Shown here: piece after piece, positions 20,191 to 55,252 of the stretch
Numbering within the stretch: the stretch's first letter is position 1
How the letters are laid out: each line of letters opens with the position of its first letter
Assembly: GCF_013387475.1 (NCBI RefSeq)
Contig: NZ_VWNB01000002.1
Location: 124,001-188,000, forward strand
Reading direction: 5' to 3'
From: Mariprofundus sp. KV
GTDB taxonomy: Bacteria > Pseudomonadota > Zetaproteobacteria > Mariprofundales > Mariprofundaceae
DNA: 64,000 bases
Made by a program: the position numbers and the translations under genes
The notes under the pieces: generated by a model
What the model was told of the DNA's origin: nothing
The model's input: the letters and a program-made list of their open reading frames with translations, nothing else
The model's database searches: none

Positions 20191-20219
20191 TTGACACGTC
20201 ATATAGCTGCGCGTAAATT
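20191..20219 (+). promoter_or_regulatory. Sigma-70-type promoter before the first Roadblock gene
   Basis: TTGACA at 20191-20196, a 17-base spacer, then TAAATT at 20214-20219 (4 of 6 consensus). It lies about 34 bases before the proposed start at 20253. Confidence 0.6.
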
Positions 20220-20252
20220 CAGGTCAAATTGCATTATTTTACAGGGGTATAG

Positions 20253-20636
20253 ATCATTTCTCTTCATACTGAGCTTGAACAGCTTCGCCAGAGCAAGAAA
20301 CTTATTTTCATCACAGTAGCCAATGATGAAGGGTTGGTCATGGCTGAAAGCGGTGACTGCCCGGAAGAGGAGTTTGCCGCCTACTCATCAGCCATGATGG
20401 AACTGGCACAGAAGGTTGCGCAATCAGGCAACCTTGGCGAGCAGATCTGTAGCGCGCTGGTACTGAAAAGCGGCCGCATGCTGGTCATGCATGAAGCCAT
20501 CATCGATGATCACTCCATTTACTTATCGATTTTGTGTAGCAGAGTTCCCGCTGGCATGCAGAGTCTGATTAAGGATATTGTTAACTGCGTTGCCAAAACC
20601 CTGTTGGGGAATCGTTATCAGGAGCCTAACCGTTGA
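20253..20636 (+). CDS. Roadblock/LC7-domain protein 1 (AUC start proposed)
   Basis: Roadblock/LC7 proteins are small dimers that bind or regulate small GTPases such as MglA. The 127-residue product aligns with the Roadblock protein at 30232: ELEQLRQ...NDEGLVMAESGD...EEFAAYSSAMMELAQ and RMLVMHEA. The first ATG/GTG/TTG-type codon in frame is TTG 20334, which would delete the first helix and strand. An in-frame TAG at 20250 limits the start to ATC 20253, ATT 20256 or a later codon. AGGGG lies five bases before 20253, and AGGGGTATAG is shared with the leader of the Roadblock gene at 23284. A non-canonical AUC or AUU start is therefore inferred. The 3' end overlaps the next gene (TTGA). Confidence 0.75.
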   Translation: MISLHTELEQLRQSKKLIFITVANDEGLVMAESGDCPEEEFAAYSSAMMELAQKVAQSGNLGEQICSALVLKSGRMLVMHEAIIDDHSIYLSILCSRVPAGMQSLIKDIVNCVAKTLLGNRYQEPNR

Positions 20637-21115
20637 GTAATTATAAAGAAGCCTGCCGTCGTGAGCTTGAACAACTGGTTGAGCGGGAATATCACCTTGA
20701 TGCAGCACTGCTCTGCAGCTCTGACGGCCTTCCTGTTGCATATGCAGCATCACGCGACATTGAGGCAGATGCACTCTCTGCAATGTGCTCATCCATGCTC
20801 TCGCTCGGTGATGCGCTTGCCATTCAAGGCGATGATGATGGCTGCATTCAGGTGGTTACCCAGTCCAAGAATCAGACTGTGGCACTGATTCATGCCGGCA
20901 GTGATATGCTGCTGGCCCTCATCGGTGCCCGAGACCTTAAACTCGGCATGCTGCTCGGACATGCCCGCAAAGAGGTTGATATCATTCTTGAACTGATCAA
21001 CAAGCAGCAGCACGAAGAGAAGGTTCAGGAGCAGCAGAAAGCCCCTGAAGAGAGAAAACCGGCGATGCTGGAAGAGCTGGTCAAACGCGTGATGCAAGAA
21101 GCACAAAACAGATAA
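20633..21115 (+). CDS. Roadblock/LC7-domain protein 2
   Basis: This 160-residue protein carries a Roadblock domain in residues ~5-118 (REYHLDAALLCSSDGLPVAYAA, VTQSKNQTVALIHAGSDMLLALIGARD), followed by a charged Gln/Glu-rich tail of ~40 residues that probably forms a coiled coil. TTG 20633 overlaps the stop of the previous Roadblock gene, so translation is coupled. The charged tail is unusual for the family and may mediate a separate contact. Confidence 0.82.
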   Translation: MSNYKEACRRELEQLVEREYHLDAALLCSSDGLPVAYAASRDIEADALSAMCSSMLSLGDALAIQGDDDGCIQVVTQSKNQTVALIHAGSDMLLALIGARDLKLGMLLGHARKEVDIILELINKQQHEEKVQEQQKAPEERKPAMLEELVKRVMQEAQNR

Positions 21116-23283: not shown

Positions 23284-23673
23284 GTGGAAAACACATCGGA
23301 ACTGAAACTGGATGTGCGGTTACAGGCTATTCTCGAGGAGACTCGCCAGATGTACAACCTGCACTCTCTTCTGCTTGCCGATCAGAACGGCCTGCCAATT
23401 AGCCATGCCGGAAAAATTGCCCATGCAGGCATGGCGGCTATTGCACCGGAGTTGATCAGGGTTGGCGATCATGCTGTTCGTCTCGGGGAATACAACAGCA
23501 TCACATGTGTGGCGCTTGTGCTTGAAGACAGCCATCTGATGGTAATCAAGGATATCGAGATCAACAACAGCCCGTTTGTACTGGTGATGGACACAGCAAC
23601 CGTCCCCAGAGGTATTCGCAAAGTAATCAAAGAGTTGAGAGACCGCTTAGCCTTTGCCATGCATATGGAGTAG
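23284..23673 (+). CDS. Roadblock/LC7-domain protein 4
   Basis: The 129-residue protein carries a complete Roadblock domain: LEETRQMYNLHSLLLADQNGLPISHAG, then LVLEDSHLMVIKDIEINNSPFVLVMD. GTG 23284 is supported by a strong GGAGGG ribosome site. The leader GGGGTATAG immediately before the start is shared with Roadblock gene 1. It is the first gene of a second plus-strand run that continues with the ODP-like gene. Confidence 0.85.
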   Translation: MENTSELKLDVRLQAILEETRQMYNLHSLLLADQNGLPISHAGKIAHAGMAAIAPELIRVGDHAVRLGEYNSITCVALVLEDSHLMVIKDIEINNSPFVLVMDTATVPRGIRKVIKELRDRLAFAMHME

Positions 23674-23722: not shown

Positions 23723-24472
23723 ATGGCTGATATATTATTCGAAAATGAAGAGCACAGATGTGTCTTTTTCGAGGACTTCACTGAGGGCGAGATGGTATCG
23801 TCCAATCAGCATCTGATAATCCACAAAGGTAAAGGCATGCTGCTTGATCCCGGTGGTCACAAGGTTTATTCAAAAATCTTCTCTGCCATGCCTGAGCATC
23901 TGCCACCATCGATGCTGAAATACCTTTTTCTCTCCCATCAGGATCCCGACATCGTCGCATCCGTTAACGGCTGGCTGATGATCACCGATGCTGATGCCTA
24001 CATGTCAGCGATCTGGCGTCGTTTTGTCGCCCACTTCGGTGTTGATGGCAGCGTCATGGATCGTATGAAAGAGATACCCGATCAGGGCATGAAACTTGAT
24101 CTGGAAGGGTGCGAGCTGATGATCCTGCCCGCTCACTTCCTGCACTCATCGGGAAATTTCCATGTTTACGACCCGGTATCAAAAATCCTCTACTCCGGCG
24201 ACCTGGGCGCAGCCATTGTCGACTACCGTTTTGTTGAAGATTTCAATACCCATGTAAGCCATATGGAGGGCTTCCATAAACGTTATATGCCTACCAGTAC
24301 CGCATGCAAAGCGTGGGCAGCCATGGTTCGCGACCTGGACATTGAGATTATTGCACCACAGCACGGTGCCATGTTTGTAGGCAAAGAGCTCTGCAATCAG
24401 TTTATCGACTGGATTGACGGCCTTGAAGTGGGTGCTGAGACCATGAAAGATATCTACAAATTACCTGCGTAA
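23723..24472 (+). CDS. ODP-type metallo-beta-lactamase-fold protein
   Basis: The 249-residue protein has an MBL-fold diiron site: SHQDPDI (H72, D74, D76, with Gln in place of the usual Glu), H138 or H141, D160 in SGDLGAA, and H214 in PQHGAM. This pattern matches the oxygen-binding diiron (ODP) proteins, which resemble the MBL half of flavodiiron proteins but lack the flavin domain and can act as O2 sensors. It lies between two Roadblock genes. An O2-sensing role is inferred from family and context, not shown. Confidence 0.8.
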   Translation: MADILFENEEHRCVFFEDFTEGEMVSSNQHLIIHKGKGMLLDPGGHKVYSKIFSAMPEHLPPSMLKYLFLSHQDPDIVASVNGWLMITDADAYMSAIWRRFVAHFGVDGSVMDRMKEIPDQGMKLDLEGCELMILPAHFLHSSGNFHVYDPVSKILYSGDLGAAIVDYRFVEDFNTHVSHMEGFHKRYMPTSTACKAWAAMVRDLDIEIIAPQHGAMFVGKELCNQFIDWIDGLEVGAETMKDIYKLPA

Positions 24473-25056: not shown

Positions 25057-25692
25057 ATGAATTCACTCGTTTACCTCCGCCGTATGATAGTCAGCCAAAA
25101 GCCAGCCAGGGTTGATTATACGGTCGGATCAACCACGAAAAGCATCTATTATGAGCGCGCCGGTTTTGAGGGCACCCATGATGAAGTATCCAGGAAACTC
25201 AGAGAGATTTTTGAATCCCGCTCAGTTGAGGTCATCACCAGCAGCGACTTTAACCCCATGAGCAACAAACGCGTATTTGCCCCGCAGGCAATCGCCTCAG
25301 CTCTGGCCGGTTATACATTTAATGCAGAGATGCGCGCCTCCCTGCTCAGTTTTGCCATGCGCCTGCCACCACTGATTGTTCGGCTCTACCCTATGCAGCG
25401 CTACGCCTTTCAGGATAACTCCACCTATATGAAGATGCATATGATGTATCAGCATAATGGTTCACTCCGAATGCAGAGCTTTATCTCTCAGGCTGAAAAC
25501 ACACGCGATGAGATGGTTCGTCTGCGGGTGTTGATGGCGACCTATATTCTCGGTCTGATCGCACCGCTTAACTCAACAGGAGGCAACAGCCACACTGCAA
25601 CCAGAGAGATGCGTGCCCATAATCCTGATGCCAGACGCGGCAAAAAAGTCTCTATTTTAAGCCGAATCATCAACAGAATCAGGGGTCTATAA
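25057..25692 (+). CDS. Unknown protein paired with the MglA-like GTPase
   Basis: I do not recognise this 211-residue protein. ATG 25057 is chosen because GAGGA lies seven bases upstream and a longer frame would run back through the terminator. It has no signal peptide or clear membrane helix. The N-terminal part is mixed alpha/beta (VDYTVGSTTKSIYYERAGF), the middle is rich in Met, and the last 30 residues are strongly basic (RRGKKVSILSRIINRIRGL). Its stop overlaps the GTPase start (TAATG), so the two are tightly coupled. It may be an effector or regulator of that GTPase. Confidence 0.7.
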   Translation: MNSLVYLRRMIVSQKPARVDYTVGSTTKSIYYERAGFEGTHDEVSRKLREIFESRSVEVITSSDFNPMSNKRVFAPQAIASALAGYTFNAEMRASLLSFAMRLPPLIVRLYPMQRYAFQDNSTYMKMHMMYQHNGSLRMQSFISQAENTRDEMVRLRVLMATYILGLIAPLNSTGGNSHTATREMRAHNPDARRGKKVSILSRIINRIRGL

Positions 25693-26276
25693 TGGAAGAA
25701 AAACAGGTTGTAAAACTTGTCATCACCGGCCCGGTCAATGCCGGCAAAACCACGATGGTTCAGAACCTCAGTGACTCGCAAATCGCAGCCACCGATGTTG
25801 CCCCCTCCGATCAGGTTGCTCAGCTCAAAAGCATGACCACAGTCGGACTGGACTTCGGCATTCTTAAAATCGATGAACACCTTGAACTGCACCTGTTCGG
25901 CACACCGGGTCAGTCACGGTTCAACTTCATGTGGAACATCCTCTCCAAGGGCGCCATCGGTGCGATTTTCCTTGTCGACAGTACCAGTGAAGAGTCACTG
26001 ATCGAGATGAGAAAGATGTATGACTACTATGAAGAGCATGTCGGTCTTCCGGTACTTGTTGGTGCAACCAAGCAGGATCTGCCCGGTGCCAAGGATGTCG
26101 ATGAGATCGCAGCCATCCTGAATCTTGGCGATGTCATGGTAGTACCCGTTGATGCCCGTGAGAAAGAGGGCAGCAAAATGCTCGCCCTCACCCTGCTTGG
26201 CAATGCGCTGGTACAGGCCAGCGCTGAAGCTGGAGAAGATGACTTTGATGATGGCGATTATGATGATCTCTTTTAG
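25692..26276 (+). CDS. MglA-like small GTPase
   Basis: The 194-residue protein is a Ras-like GTPase of the bacterial MglA/Arf-like type. G1 is GPVNAGKT (13-20), the switch I Thr lies in TTVGLDFG (T49/T50), G3 is TPGQ (71-74, replacing DxxG as in MglA relatives), and G4 is TKQD (126-129). The C-terminal ~25 residues are a strongly acidic tail (DDFDDGDYDDLF). MglA homologues control cell polarity and motility, with Roadblock partners as regulators. The six Roadblock genes nearby make such regulation likely. It lies 15 bp before mltD. Confidence 0.87.
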   Translation: MEEKQVVKLVITGPVNAGKTTMVQNLSDSQIAATDVAPSDQVAQLKSMTTVGLDFGILKIDEHLELHLFGTPGQSRFNFMWNILSKGAIGAIFLVDSTSEESLIEMRKMYDYYEEHVGLPVLVGATKQDLPGAKDVDEIAAILNLGDVMVVPVDAREKEGSKMLALTLLGNALVQASAEAGEDDFDDGDYDDLF

Positions 26277-30083: not shown

Positions 30084-30231
30084 TGACAAGTCCACAGGTA
30101 TTGATGCGCTTGGTGCGGCAAATATGAGCGCACAGAAAAATGAGGCGCTTGAACTTATGGGCAGGAATAGTGATACTGCTTCCTCTTGTGGCTGACACAG
30201 GAAAATATGATGCAGGTTGGAGGGATGGCTT

Positions 30232-30588
30232 ATCTCTATTCAACAGGAACTTGAACAGATTCGGCAGGAGCATGATCTCTCCTGTGTTATCGTTATTGAT
30301 GGTGAAGGCGCTCTGATCGCTCAGGTTGGCGATCACCCTGAAGGGGAAGAGTTTGCGCTCTACTCACCTATGGTGATGGAGACCATCCGCACCATGTCAC
30401 AGGTTGGTGGCTTTGGTGAGCCGATCTGCAACGGAGTCATTCTCAAAAAAGGAAGAATCCTCATCACCCATCAGGATGTTGTGAAGGGTGAAGTGATCTA
30501 CTCCTCACTGCTGTGTCAGAAAAAGGTGCCAGCCGGTCTTCTGGAACTGCTCAACAAGATCACCAAACTGGTAGAAAAAGCGATCTGA
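30232..30588 (+). CDS. Roadblock/LC7-domain protein 6 (AUC start proposed)
   Basis: Paralogue of Roadblock protein 1, matching in QELEQIRQEHDLSCVIVIDGEGALIAQVGD...EEFALYSPMVMETI and RILITHQD. GGAGGG at 30219-30224 is an excellent ribosome site; the in-frame codon at Shine-Dalgarno distance is ATC 30232 (CTT just before it). The only canonical codon is TTG 30217, which lies before and inside the Shine-Dalgarno region. I therefore propose an AUC start, homologous in position to that of Roadblock gene 1. It is separated from the main cluster by mltD, the substrate-binding gene and the unknown membrane protein gene. Confidence 0.72.
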   Translation: MSIQQELEQIRQEHDLSCVIVIDGEGALIAQVGDHPEGEEFALYSPMVMETIRTMSQVGGFGEPICNGVILKKGRILITHQDVVKGEVIYSSLLCQKKVPAGLLELLNKITKLVEKAI

Positions 30589-32523: not shown

Positions 32524-33132
32524 TTACAGCTGTTTGAACTGTTGAACATCACTGGTTATTGCGCGCACCTGCTCATCCGGCGAGAGATCCAGATAGACCT
32601 TTTTGATAATACCTGCCTCATCAACAAGATAACTCATATTCTTGGTCATATGCGTCATCGAGGTGTGAGCTGCATACTCCTGGATAACATCGCCCTCAGG
32701 ATCGGAAAGCAGAGGGTGTGTGATCCCCAGCTTCTCGGCAAATTCATGATGCGAAGACACTGAATCGTAACTGATACCGATCAGCTGCAAATCCAGTGAA
32801 CGGAAAGCATTATAGTTGTCTCTCAATCGCCGGGCCTGAATCAACCCCTCCGCACGGGACTCATTATAAAAATAGACCAGGCACCAGTGACCCTTGAAAT
32901 CACTGACAGAGACATTTGTATTATCCTGATTCCGCAGCACAAATTCAGGAACAGGTTTACCCGGCTCAATGGGTTTACCGTTATTGACAATGATGCTGAT
33001 CATCACAATTGCTGGCGCCACTGCTACCATAATCATCCCAACCACTATCTTCACGATAGCGCGTTGCACCTGTTGCGCCTGTTCGTGGTTGGCTGGTAAT
33101 GGTCTCTGATTCATGTTCGAGTTCTGCCACAC
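32524..33132 (-). CDS. Membrane-anchored redoxin-like protein without peroxidatic Cys
   Basis: The 202-residue protein has an N-terminal membrane anchor (IVVGMIMVAVAPAIVMISIIV) and a thioredoxin-fold/AhpC-TSA-like domain: PVPEFVLRNQDNTNVSVSDFKGHWCLVYFYNESRAEG, then LIGISYDSVSSHHEFAEKLGITHPLLSDPEGDVIQEY. In Bcp-type peroxiredoxins the peroxidatic Cys is in YFYPKxxTPGCT; here that position is NESRAEG with no Cys. The only Cys nearby is in HWC, a different position. It therefore may not be a peroxiredoxin. An internal ATG at 33114 is an alternative start. It converges on the HD-GYP gene. Confidence 0.72.
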   Translation of the reverse strand: MWQNSNMNQRPLPANHEQAQQVQRAIVKIVVGMIMVAVAPAIVMISIIVNNGKPIEPGKPVPEFVLRNQDNTNVSVSDFKGHWCLVYFYNESRAEGLIQARRLRDNYNAFRSLDLQLIGISYDSVSSHHEFAEKLGITHPLLSDPEGDVIQEYAAHTSMTHMTKNMSYLVDEAGIIKKVYLDLSPDEQVRAITSDVQQFKQL

Positions 33133-33280
33133 CTTGTCTAATAAGTAAAGTCTAATATACGCATGTCTTGCACATCAAGCTTGTGAAATCGAGAAGGAAA
33201 GAAAGAGAGCAACATAAACCGAGCAGGCCAGATGAACACAATTAAGCAACTGCGCAGACATCCGAAAATTAAACCAACAC

Positions 33281-53372: not shown

Positions 53373-54434
53373 ATGATTTCTTCCTATAGCTCCATCTATC
53401 ACTTCAACACTGTTGTACATACAACACTGCTGCTGCTCGCGCTTTTAATCTCAGCACCTCAGGCATCACAAGCCGCCGGCAAGGCGCCTGATGGCACGCA
53501 ACATGTAAGCCGTGAAGAGCTTGTCACCCTGCTTGCCAGTGAAACCGGACTTCCTGCTAATGCCTTAACTGAAATCATTAAGGATGCGGTATTTAAACCC
53601 GGCATCATCGAAAGCATGAACAAACAGTGGGAAGCACAGCCCTACGCCAAATATCGACCACTGTTTATCAAGCAGAGCATGTCGGATAAGGGCAAGGCAT
53701 TCCTTAAAGAGAACCGTTCAACATTCGCATCGGCTGAGCAGAAGTATCAGGTGGACAGCGCCATTATTGCCGGCATTCTGGGCATTGAAACACGCTTTGG
53801 TGAATCTCATGGCAGCAAACCCATTCTTGATTCACTCTATACGCTCTCTACAGGTTTCCCCAGACGGGCAAAGTTTTTCCGCAGCCAGCTTGCTGCCATC
53901 ATTCAGATCTCTCTTCAGGATAAACTTAAACTCAATGAACTCAAAGGTTCATATGCCGGTGCCTTCGGTGCCATTCAGTTTATCCCCACCTCCTTCCGCG
54001 ATTTTGCTGTGGATGATGATGGTGATGGCATTCGCGATGTGTTCAACTCCAAAGCGGACATTATCGGCAGTGTTGCCAACTATTTTCAGAAACATGGATG
54101 GCAGCACGGCAGGCCTGTTGCGCACTGGTTGCCGCCACGCACCAAGTTGAATAAAGCCTGGAAAGAAAATATTAAAGATAGCAAACCAAAACATTGGGTC
54201 ACGCTGGCTGAGCTACGTCGTGAGATGCCAAAGGTTTTCAACAAGATTCCACTGCCATGGTTAGAAAGTGATAAAGTCAGCATCATTGAGATGCAGACGA
54301 AAAAAGGTAATCAGCTGGCGCTGGTACACTATAACTTCCGGGTCATCATGAGTTATAATCCATCGTTTAACTATGCCATGGCAGTTACTGAAATTGCAGC
54401 CATGTGGGAGAGTGAAAAATTCGCTGTCGACTAA
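53373..54434 (+). CDS. mltB: Lytic murein transglycosylase B-type
   Basis: The 353-residue protein has a cleavable signal sequence and the MltB catalytic region: VDSAIIAGILGIETRFGES (catalytic Glu in IETRFG), SYAGAFGAIQFIPTSFRDFAVD, DDDGDGIRDVFN and IGSVANYFQKHGW. No lipobox is evident, so it may be periplasmic and not anchored. Its 3' end overlaps the proposed AUU start of rlpA. Confidence 0.93.
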   Translation: MISSYSSIYHFNTVVHTTLLLLALLISAPQASQAAGKAPDGTQHVSREELVTLLASETGLPANALTEIIKDAVFKPGIIESMNKQWEAQPYAKYRPLFIKQSMSDKGKAFLKENRSTFASAEQKYQVDSAIIAGILGIETRFGESHGSKPILDSLYTLSTGFPRRAKFFRSQLAAIIQISLQDKLKLNELKGSYAGAFGAIQFIPTSFRDFAVDDDGDGIRDVFNSKADIIGSVANYFQKHGWQHGRPVAHWLPPRTKLNKAWKENIKDSKPKHWVTLAELRREMPKVFNKIPLPWLESDKVSIIEMQTKKGNQLALVHYNFRVIMSYNPSFNYAMAVTEIAAMWESEKFAVD

Positions 54435-55252
54435 TTACCCTAACCCTGATTACCCTCTTCTCGATCGCTACATTGACAGGCTGCAACCATCAGAAAAGCA
54501 GCCAAACAGGAACGCCTCAGGGCAAACCCGGCAGTGTAGCCAAGTTACCTGATGGCAAAGGCGGCACCTACAAAACCGGCAACCCCTACATGGTAGCCGG
54601 GCGCTGGTATACGCCGATGCAACAGCTCACCTCATATGATCAGAGTGGCATCGCCTCATGGTATGGCGATGATTTTCACGGCAAGCTGACCGCCAACGGT
54701 GAGTCCTATGATATGTATAGTCTCTCAGCTGCGCATAAGACTCTGCCGCTGCCTACCCTTGTCCGGGTCACCAATCTGGAGAACGGACGCAGCGTGGTTG
54801 TACGCGTCAATGATCGCGGCCCTTTTGTCAAAGATCGCCTGATCGATCTCTCTTATGCTGCCGCCAATGCACTGGGCTTTATGGACAAGGGCACCACACA
54901 TGTACGTGTGCAGACACTGGATCAGAAACCGGATCTTCAGGCCAAACCGGCAACCACCACTGTACCTGATGCCATTGCAGCACCTGTTCCTGCCCCTGCC
55001 GTTATAACAAGCGCAAAAGAGGCGGGTATTTTCGTGCAGCTGGGTGCCTTCGGATCTGAAGCCAATGCCAATCGTCTGCAGCAGTCACTGCACCCCCTCT
55101 ATCCGACAGTTCGGCTGCATCCGAAGCTGGTGGTGGATCGAACCATCTACCGTGTACGTATCGGCCCGTTTGAAAGCATGCAGAAGGTGGAGGAGACAGT
55201 GATTTCACTACAGAAAAACGGCTATAATCAGACCGTTGTGGTGATTGAGTAA
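54419..55252 (+). CDS. rlpA: Septal-ring lytic transglycosylase RlpA with SPOR domain (AUU start proposed)
   Basis: Lipoprotein with an RlpA double-psi barrel (ASWYGDDFHGKLTANGESYDMYSLSAAHKTLPLPT) and a C-terminal SPOR domain (FVQLGAFGSEANANRL). The first canonical start in frame is TTG 54473, which would give a product with Cys at position 4 and no signal peptide. The frame is open further upstream: from ATT 54419 it encodes RCRLITLTLITLFSIATLTGC, a full lipoprotein signal with lipobox LTGC at Cys 22. GGGAG lies eight bases before ATT. An AUU start is therefore inferred; it overlaps mltB by 16 bp. Confidence 0.8.
   Translation: MRCRLITLTLITLFSIATLTGCNHQKSSQTGTPQGKPGSVAKLPDGKGGTYKTGNPYMVAGRWYTPMQQLTSYDQSGIASWYGDDFHGKLTANGESYDMYSLSAAHKTLPLPTLVRVTNLENGRSVVVRVNDRGPFVKDRLIDLSYAAANALGFMDKGTTHVRVQTLDQKPDLQAKPATTTVPDAIAAPVPAPAVITSAKEAGIFVQLGAFGSEANANRLQQSLHPLYPTVRLHPKLVVDRTIYRVRIGPFESMQKVEETVISLQKNGYNQTVVVIE

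Follow-up and report, generated by a model that had tools for sequence, protein, structure and literature searches.

An AUU codon conserved among Mariprofundus orthologues as the likely start of a roadblock gene, and its candidate role as a weak start

The roadblock proteins are small proteins of the MglB/LC7 fold that assist GTPases, and the genes considered here raise the question of where translation begins when no canonical start codon is at hand. The first of two adjoining roadblock genes (gene 1 and gene 2) in Mariprofundus sp. KV, a marine, iron-oxidising bacterium, lies in a stretch of 64,000 nucleotides, the whole of which was analysed and is referred to as the window. A sequence-only reading of this DNA had claimed that gene 1 has no canonical start upstream of its domain, and had proposed a start at AUC or AUU instead. 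The 5' end of the gene reads as it had been described, with AGGGG at 20243-20247, the bases TA, an in-frame TAG at 20250-20252, and then ATC at 20253 and ATT at 20256. The spacing given for AGGGG, five bases to ATC and eight to ATT, is confirmed, and TTG 20334 is indeed the earliest in-frame ATG, GTG or TTG downstream of the ATT.

The start region of roadblock gene 1

The promoter, the signals around the start and the two genes are located as follows.

20191-20219, + strand: sigma-70-type promoter of roadblock gene 1 (TTGACA 20191-20196, 17 nt, TAAATT 20214-20219)
20243-20247, + strand: Shine-Dalgarno element AGGGG of gene 1, 8 nt before ATT, of the AGGRGG type in orthologues
20250-20252, + strand: in-frame UAG before gene 1, invariant in 12 of 12 orthologues
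20253-20255, + strand: ATC beside the gene 1 start, not itself the start; seven codons occupy the place among 12 orthologues
20256-20258, + strand: probable AUU start codon of gene 1, ATT in 12 of 12 orthologues, ATG or TTG in distant relatives
20256-20636 including the stop, + strand: roadblock gene 1, 126 aa, with an MglB/LC7 fold (predicted model, Foldseek)
20633-21115, + strand: roadblock gene 2 (Robl_LC7, Pfam E 2.4e-12), with a TTG start that overlaps the gene 1 stop (TTGA)

The gene 1 protein was searched against 78 genomes of the class, giving matches in 18 at E <= 1e-8, and gene 1 was told apart from a paralogue at 30232 by gene order, by the clade that the paralogues form and by the context of the start. 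The genus group is Mariprofundus, encompassing M. ferrooxydans PV-1, M. micogutta ET2, M. erugo P3, strain EBB-1 and metagenome-assembled genomes. Gene 1 is found in 12 of the 23 genus genomes (G000, G047, G049-G054, G056, G058, G063 and G064) and the paralogue in 14, while at the thresholds used neither is found in eight, including the single-contig G046. All 12 orthologues share a common layout, which consists of TTGACA, about 17 nt, a TAA-rich -10 (TAAA), a short leader, TACAGGRGATAG, a variable codon and ATT-TCN-CTT. The AGGRGG-type element lies some 7-8 nt before the ATT in the alignment, which is a usable spacing.

The start codon is ATT in all 12 orthologues, each of which has TAG two codons before it, and an ATG, GTG or TTG between TAG and ATT is absent from every one. 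The observation that would speak against the proposal, a conventional start further upstream in orthologues, is found in none of them, and the invariant UAG excludes any in-frame upstream start. As the TAG, the ATT and the missing canonical start are shared throughout, they reflect neither chance nor sequencing error. The place of the ATC, in contrast, is occupied by GTC in four orthologues, AAT in two, GCC in two, and ATC, AGC, AGT and GAC in one each. The proposed AUC/AUU start therefore stands for AUU 20256 and falls for AUC 20253, and this comparison of sequences brings the assignment to AUU close to proof. The four bases ATAG ahead of the AUU are invariant in all 12 orthologues, yet the codon after the UAG is free.

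The promoter matches 10 of 12 consensus positions, with one such site found against 0.6 expected in shuffled sequences, and its TTGACA and TAA are unchanged in the 12 orthologues. From its position, the mRNA is predicted to carry a 5' leader of about 30 nt. As a candidate RNA-structure switch, this leader gave a consensus energy of only -0.83 kcal/mol and no pair changed on both sides.

The codons that follow the ATT evolve as protein. For gene 1, pN/pS is 0.41 over codons 2-13, 0.31 over codons 2-28 and 0.27 over codons 29-118, values which indicate that residues 2-28 are under purifying, protein-level selection. Residues S2, L3, L7 and L10 are invariant, with L10 encoded by four different codons, and E8 is encoded by either GAA or GAG. 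Of the invariant residues, 36 could be encoded by more than one codon, and a single codon is used in all 12 orthologues only at I1 (ATT), L3, L7 and F18. The other four invariant isoleucines are encoded by ATT in 33, ATC in 11 and ATA in 4 of 48 codons, so the rarity of ATT argues little by itself; judged by codon count alone, the fixed ATT at I1 is mildly notable, at about 1% by a naive product that ignores relatedness. Leucine codons 3 (20262-20264) and 7 (20274-20276) are CTT in 12 of 12, which hints at nucleotide-level constraint at the beginning of the gene.

An AlphaFold2 model of the gene 1 protein, based on 28 sequences (pLDDT 84.4, pTM 0.77), opens with a predicted helix at residues 3-13 and a predicted strand at 16-23. 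Its top Foldseek matches are the archaeal Roadblock3 (9jue_A, E 4.0e-6) and MglB of M. xanthus (6hjm_B, E 4.3e-6). The Pfam profiles score under their curated cut-offs (Robl_LC7 with 16.0 bits against 23, LAMTOR5 with 20.1 against 27), and thus the family name rests on the fold, for which a confident model predicts a roadblock (MglB-like) protein. It had been suggested that a start at TTG 20334 would remove a first helix and strand kept in the paralogue at 30232; the model agrees, as does the paralogue, which aligns with gene 1 over its full length, helix 1 and strand 1 included.

Other points of entry into this frame can be considered against the same evidence. Gene callers restricted to ATG, GTG and TTG are forced to choose a downstream codon, be it TTG 20334, ATG 20340 or an ATG at codon 14, and the ATG at codon 29 is invariant in the 12 orthologues with a GA(A/G)GG-like sequence ahead of it. 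Such a start is nevertheless very unlikely, given that codons 2-28 evolve as protein and that a beginning at codon 27 deletes the first helix and strand from the predicted fold. The ATG at codon 14, present in 10 of 12 orthologues, gives way to AAG in G054 and in the window's own genome, and the canonical codon nearest 3' of the ATT varies in place from residue 10 to residue 27. The downstream start was rejected on codon-level selection and the predicted fold, and the ATGs at codons 14 and 29 make shorter products possible besides the AUU-started one. For ATC 20253, its near-cognate nature and its distance of 5 nt from AGGGG are outweighed by the lack of conservation of its place in the other 11 orthologues, and a start there was rejected as extremely improbable. 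Entry from upstream, through read-through of the UAG or a frameshift, would find some encouragement in the invariance of the UAG and in a TTG at 20229, in frame ahead of it in the window. It too has only the slightest probability, since some leaders (L007 and L013, for example) have no in-frame ATG, GTG or TTG, the promoter allows a leader of only about 30 nt, and the orthologue alignment holds no conserved upstream peptide; the absence of a conserved upstream frame led to its rejection.

The paralogue, rlpA and infC

The paralogue of gene 1 and an rlpA-like gene extend the comparison within the window.

30219-30224, + strand: Shine-Dalgarno element GGAGGG of the paralogue, 7 nt before ATC
30232-30588, + strand: paralogue of gene 1, with ATC at 30232-30234 as its start
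54419-55252, + strand: rlpA-like lipoprotein gene with an ATT start at 54419-54421 (TIGR00413 rlpA, 161.9 bits, over the cut-off)

Among 13 genomes, the start of the paralogue is ATC in seven, ATT in three and ATG in three. In the window, an alternative in-frame TTG lies at 30217, touching the Shine-Dalgarno element, and four ATC paralogues (L021, L026, L027 and L029) have no canonical codon from the upstream stop to the ATC. In the tree, a 100/100 branch separates all genus sequences from the rest, the 13 paralogues are grouped at 100/100, and the gene 1 rows are all ATT. The aligned start in the five relatives from outside the genus is ATG in four and TTG in one. This distribution suggests that in the roadblock family the canonical start is probably older, that AUU/AUC appeared no later than the duplication, and that ATG came afterwards in one paralogue clade; with a root placed at the midpoint, this order of start-codon changes is an interpretation of the tree.

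Alignment A1 and the tree omit L003, which is window gene 23284, as well as L017/L047, the G048 paralogue, whose start could not be placed. Of the more distant loci, L051 and L053 were put into the tree, whereas L052 (out of frame) and L056 were not used. The G048 paralogue comes from a complete genome; no start is evident where the others align, and an ATG lies 21-22 codons upstream. L052 is a distant homologue from G035 with its 5' part in another frame, the result of a frameshift or an assembly error.

The rlpA-like gene appears to be a second AUU-start family in the window, unrelated to the roadblock genes. Its beginning reads ATT-CGC in all 20 of the genus genomes (of 23) whose contig has the 5' end. 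In 18 of 19 scored genomes there is no canonical codon from the stop to the ATT, G050 having a GTG, and the twentieth genome was checked for ATT alone. The lipoprotein cysteine is found about 20-22 residues past the ATT in most genomes, a distance that suits a signal peptide. Outside the genus, ATG or GTG candidates lie near the corresponding place, and by eye the GTG-CGC-CGT of G002 resembles the ATT-CGC-CGT of the genus. The gene infC, which encodes IF3, was found in 20 of the 23 genus genomes (L031 and L126-L144) and starts with ATT in all 20.

The rlpA case emerged from a survey for similar starts. An initial filter was dropped, as it flagged 64 of 143 ORFs, mostly owing to the likeness of close relatives upstream as well. 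When more distant genomes served as the comparison instead, a second filter picked out 18 of the 97 conserved ORFs on the contig that includes the window, most of which proved on reading to be neighbour overlaps, antisense shadows or single-target cases. On this comparative evidence roadblock gene 1 and rlpA appear to be the convincing cases, with one further weak case at 32527-33174 on the minus strand of the window; the paralogue at 30232, which has a TTG close by, was missed. A scan that combined codon usage with Shine-Dalgarno elements flagged none of 202 genes, and as it misses even gene 1 it is uninformative.

Initiation at the AUU and its regulation

Our preferred reading, to which we give a probability of roughly 0.8, is that the AUU of gene 1 acts as a start that is weak and sensitive to IF3, that selection has kept so, and that limits the roadblock operon. 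With a short, open leader and a strong Shine-Dalgarno element ahead of it, AUU 20256 would be the codon at which ribosomes begin. A search with an initiator tRNA pattern that left an anticodon base free returned one site, with anticodon CAT, so reading of the AUU would involve a mismatch at the third position. A special initiator tRNA matching AUU was accordingly set aside, the sole pattern match being an ordinary one, with the proviso that initiators departing from the pattern would escape such a search. Pairing with the ordinary initiator tRNA through one mismatch would be discriminated against by IF3, and initiation on gene 1 would be weak and track the level of IF3.

The start of gene 2 lies between -8 and +12 nt from the gene 1 stop in all 12 genomes, and with this adjoining or overlapping layout a weak AUU should cap both roadblock proteins. 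Selection may be what keeps the start weak, the ATT of gene 1 being fixed and the start of the paralogue being mostly ATC or ATT. What is apparent from sequence comparison is a conserved AUU start with a strong Shine-Dalgarno element and a coupled layout, and from these we infer a low rate of initiation, control by IF3 and a benefit of low dose. The retention of ATT in every relative in which the gene was found points to what may be a deliberate brake on output of the gene 1 protein. Gene 1 is absent from 11 of the 23 genus genomes, so the genus as a whole does not depend on its dose. Neither the invariance of the UAG nor the fixation of CTT at codons 3 and 7 of gene 1 is accounted for by a weak AUU start.

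The AUU could also be real but neutral, with a strong Shine-Dalgarno element sufficing for translation and ATT kept by descent. All three families have strong Shine-Dalgarno elements and rlpA, a cell-wall gene, shows the same trait; we consider this account rather improbable. Against it, the synonymous sites of gene 1 are near saturation (pS 0.74) and ATG is one change away, yet ATT persists in 12 of 12. In the same 12 genomes gene 2 exchanges its start codon freely (TTG in seven, ATG in five), and saturation together with this exchange argues that the fixed ATT is not neutral. The switch of the paralogue to ATG in one clade shows, moreover, that the path from ATT or ATC to ATG is open. A related account, which we regard as doubtful, is that Mariprofundus is more tolerant of AUU/AUC starts than other bacteria are, as a genus-wide habit. 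It draws on the occurrence of three families besides infC within one 64 kb window, on the detection of rlpA when 97 conserved ORFs of one contig were scanned without preselection, and on the canonical starts of out-of-genus relatives in both the roadblock and the rlpA family; the survey, on the other hand, covers one 261 kb contig with a crude filter. As rlpA has no evident regulatory role and the same AUU trait, it fits a looser choice of start as well as it fits regulation. It is unlikely, though conceivable, that these genes make up an AUU/AUC-start regulon of several families, each read through a weak, IF3-gated start retained throughout the genus, in which the level of IF3 or looser initiation would jointly set roadblock-GTPase signalling and cell-wall remodelling.

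For the preferred reading of a weak, IF3-sensitive start, the classic parallel is infC, the AUU-start gene for IF3 in E. coli and many bacteria. Its conserved, rare AUU and Shine-Dalgarno element resemble those of gene 1, and in Mariprofundus it has ATT as well. In contrast to infC, gene 1 encodes a roadblock protein rather than IF3, and hence lacks a self-feedback loop; only the dependence on IF3 could be shared. Binns and Masters in 2002 reportedly found an AUU start in E. coli pcnB, with output held low. Like gene 1, pcnB is a non-infC gene with an AUU, but the proteins are unrelated, and the AUU of gene 1 is conserved over 12 genus genomes.

Autoregulation of infC is described in PMC5472188, as is Streptomyces sigR, whose GTC start is under IF3 repression. 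The sigR gene encodes a regulator and, like gene 1, has a strong Shine-Dalgarno element and a non-canonical start, both conserved, with a coupled downstream gene; its start is GTC with IF3 dependence shown, whereas that of gene 1 is AUU with IF3 dependence inferred. In S. aureus, cvfC1 (AUU) and ccpN (AUA) have conserved non-canonical starts with a strong Shine-Dalgarno element, and reporters with an AUU or AUA start reached about 10% of the AUG level in poor medium (PMC13009471). The cvfC1 gene heads its operon, and gene 1 likewise appears to be first. In these Firmicutes genes the Shine-Dalgarno pairing is extended (PMC13009471), whereas the Mariprofundus leader has no match beyond AGGRGG. 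The AUU-type starts of these accounts are weak and IF3-sensitive (PMC13009471, PMC5472188), and by analogy IF3 sensitivity of the gene 1 AUU is plausible. For pncA (bbe22) of Borrelia burgdorferi, experiment confirmed that translation really begins further upstream, at an AUU, and the truncated database protein was at odds with the fold (PMC13398362). The case of gene 1 is similar, though its AUU comes from comparison and a model only. A known AUU start is also recorded for RcsD-Hpt of Yersinia (PMC10191623).

Well-supported AUU starts beyond infC are few in bacteria, and Mariprofundus adds three families with a comparative record. As no mention of the AUU starts of gene 1, the paralogue and rlpA was found in the open-licence literature, they appear, within that literature, as new additions to the known AUU-type starts. 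What is unusual is that one genus should have three such families in addition to infC, and that an invariant UAG lies two codons before the AUU. The paralogue offers starts that switch naturally between ATC/ATT and ATG, and cultured hosts exist; together with the comparative record, this makes selection on a weak start, and IF3 control beyond infC, testable. Gene callers limited to ATG, GTG and TTG must shorten or overlook these proteins.

The roadblock-GTPase cluster

Genes 1 and 2 belong to a larger cluster, with additional roadblock-type genes at 23284 and 24507 and a small GTPase.

25692-26276, + strand: small Ras/Arf-type GTPase of the same cluster (Pfam Arf 1.5e-12, Ras 5.1e-8)

The GTPase is a possible partner of the roadblock proteins and, going by family only, the setting of gene 1 is likely to be a roadblock-GTPase module for signalling or polarity. 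A mobile or viral origin of gene 1 was considered and rejected, as no relative turned up in the collections of viral contigs and plasmids that were searched. An ODP-type protein of the metallo-beta-lactamase fold is encoded at 23723-24472, among the roadblock genes.
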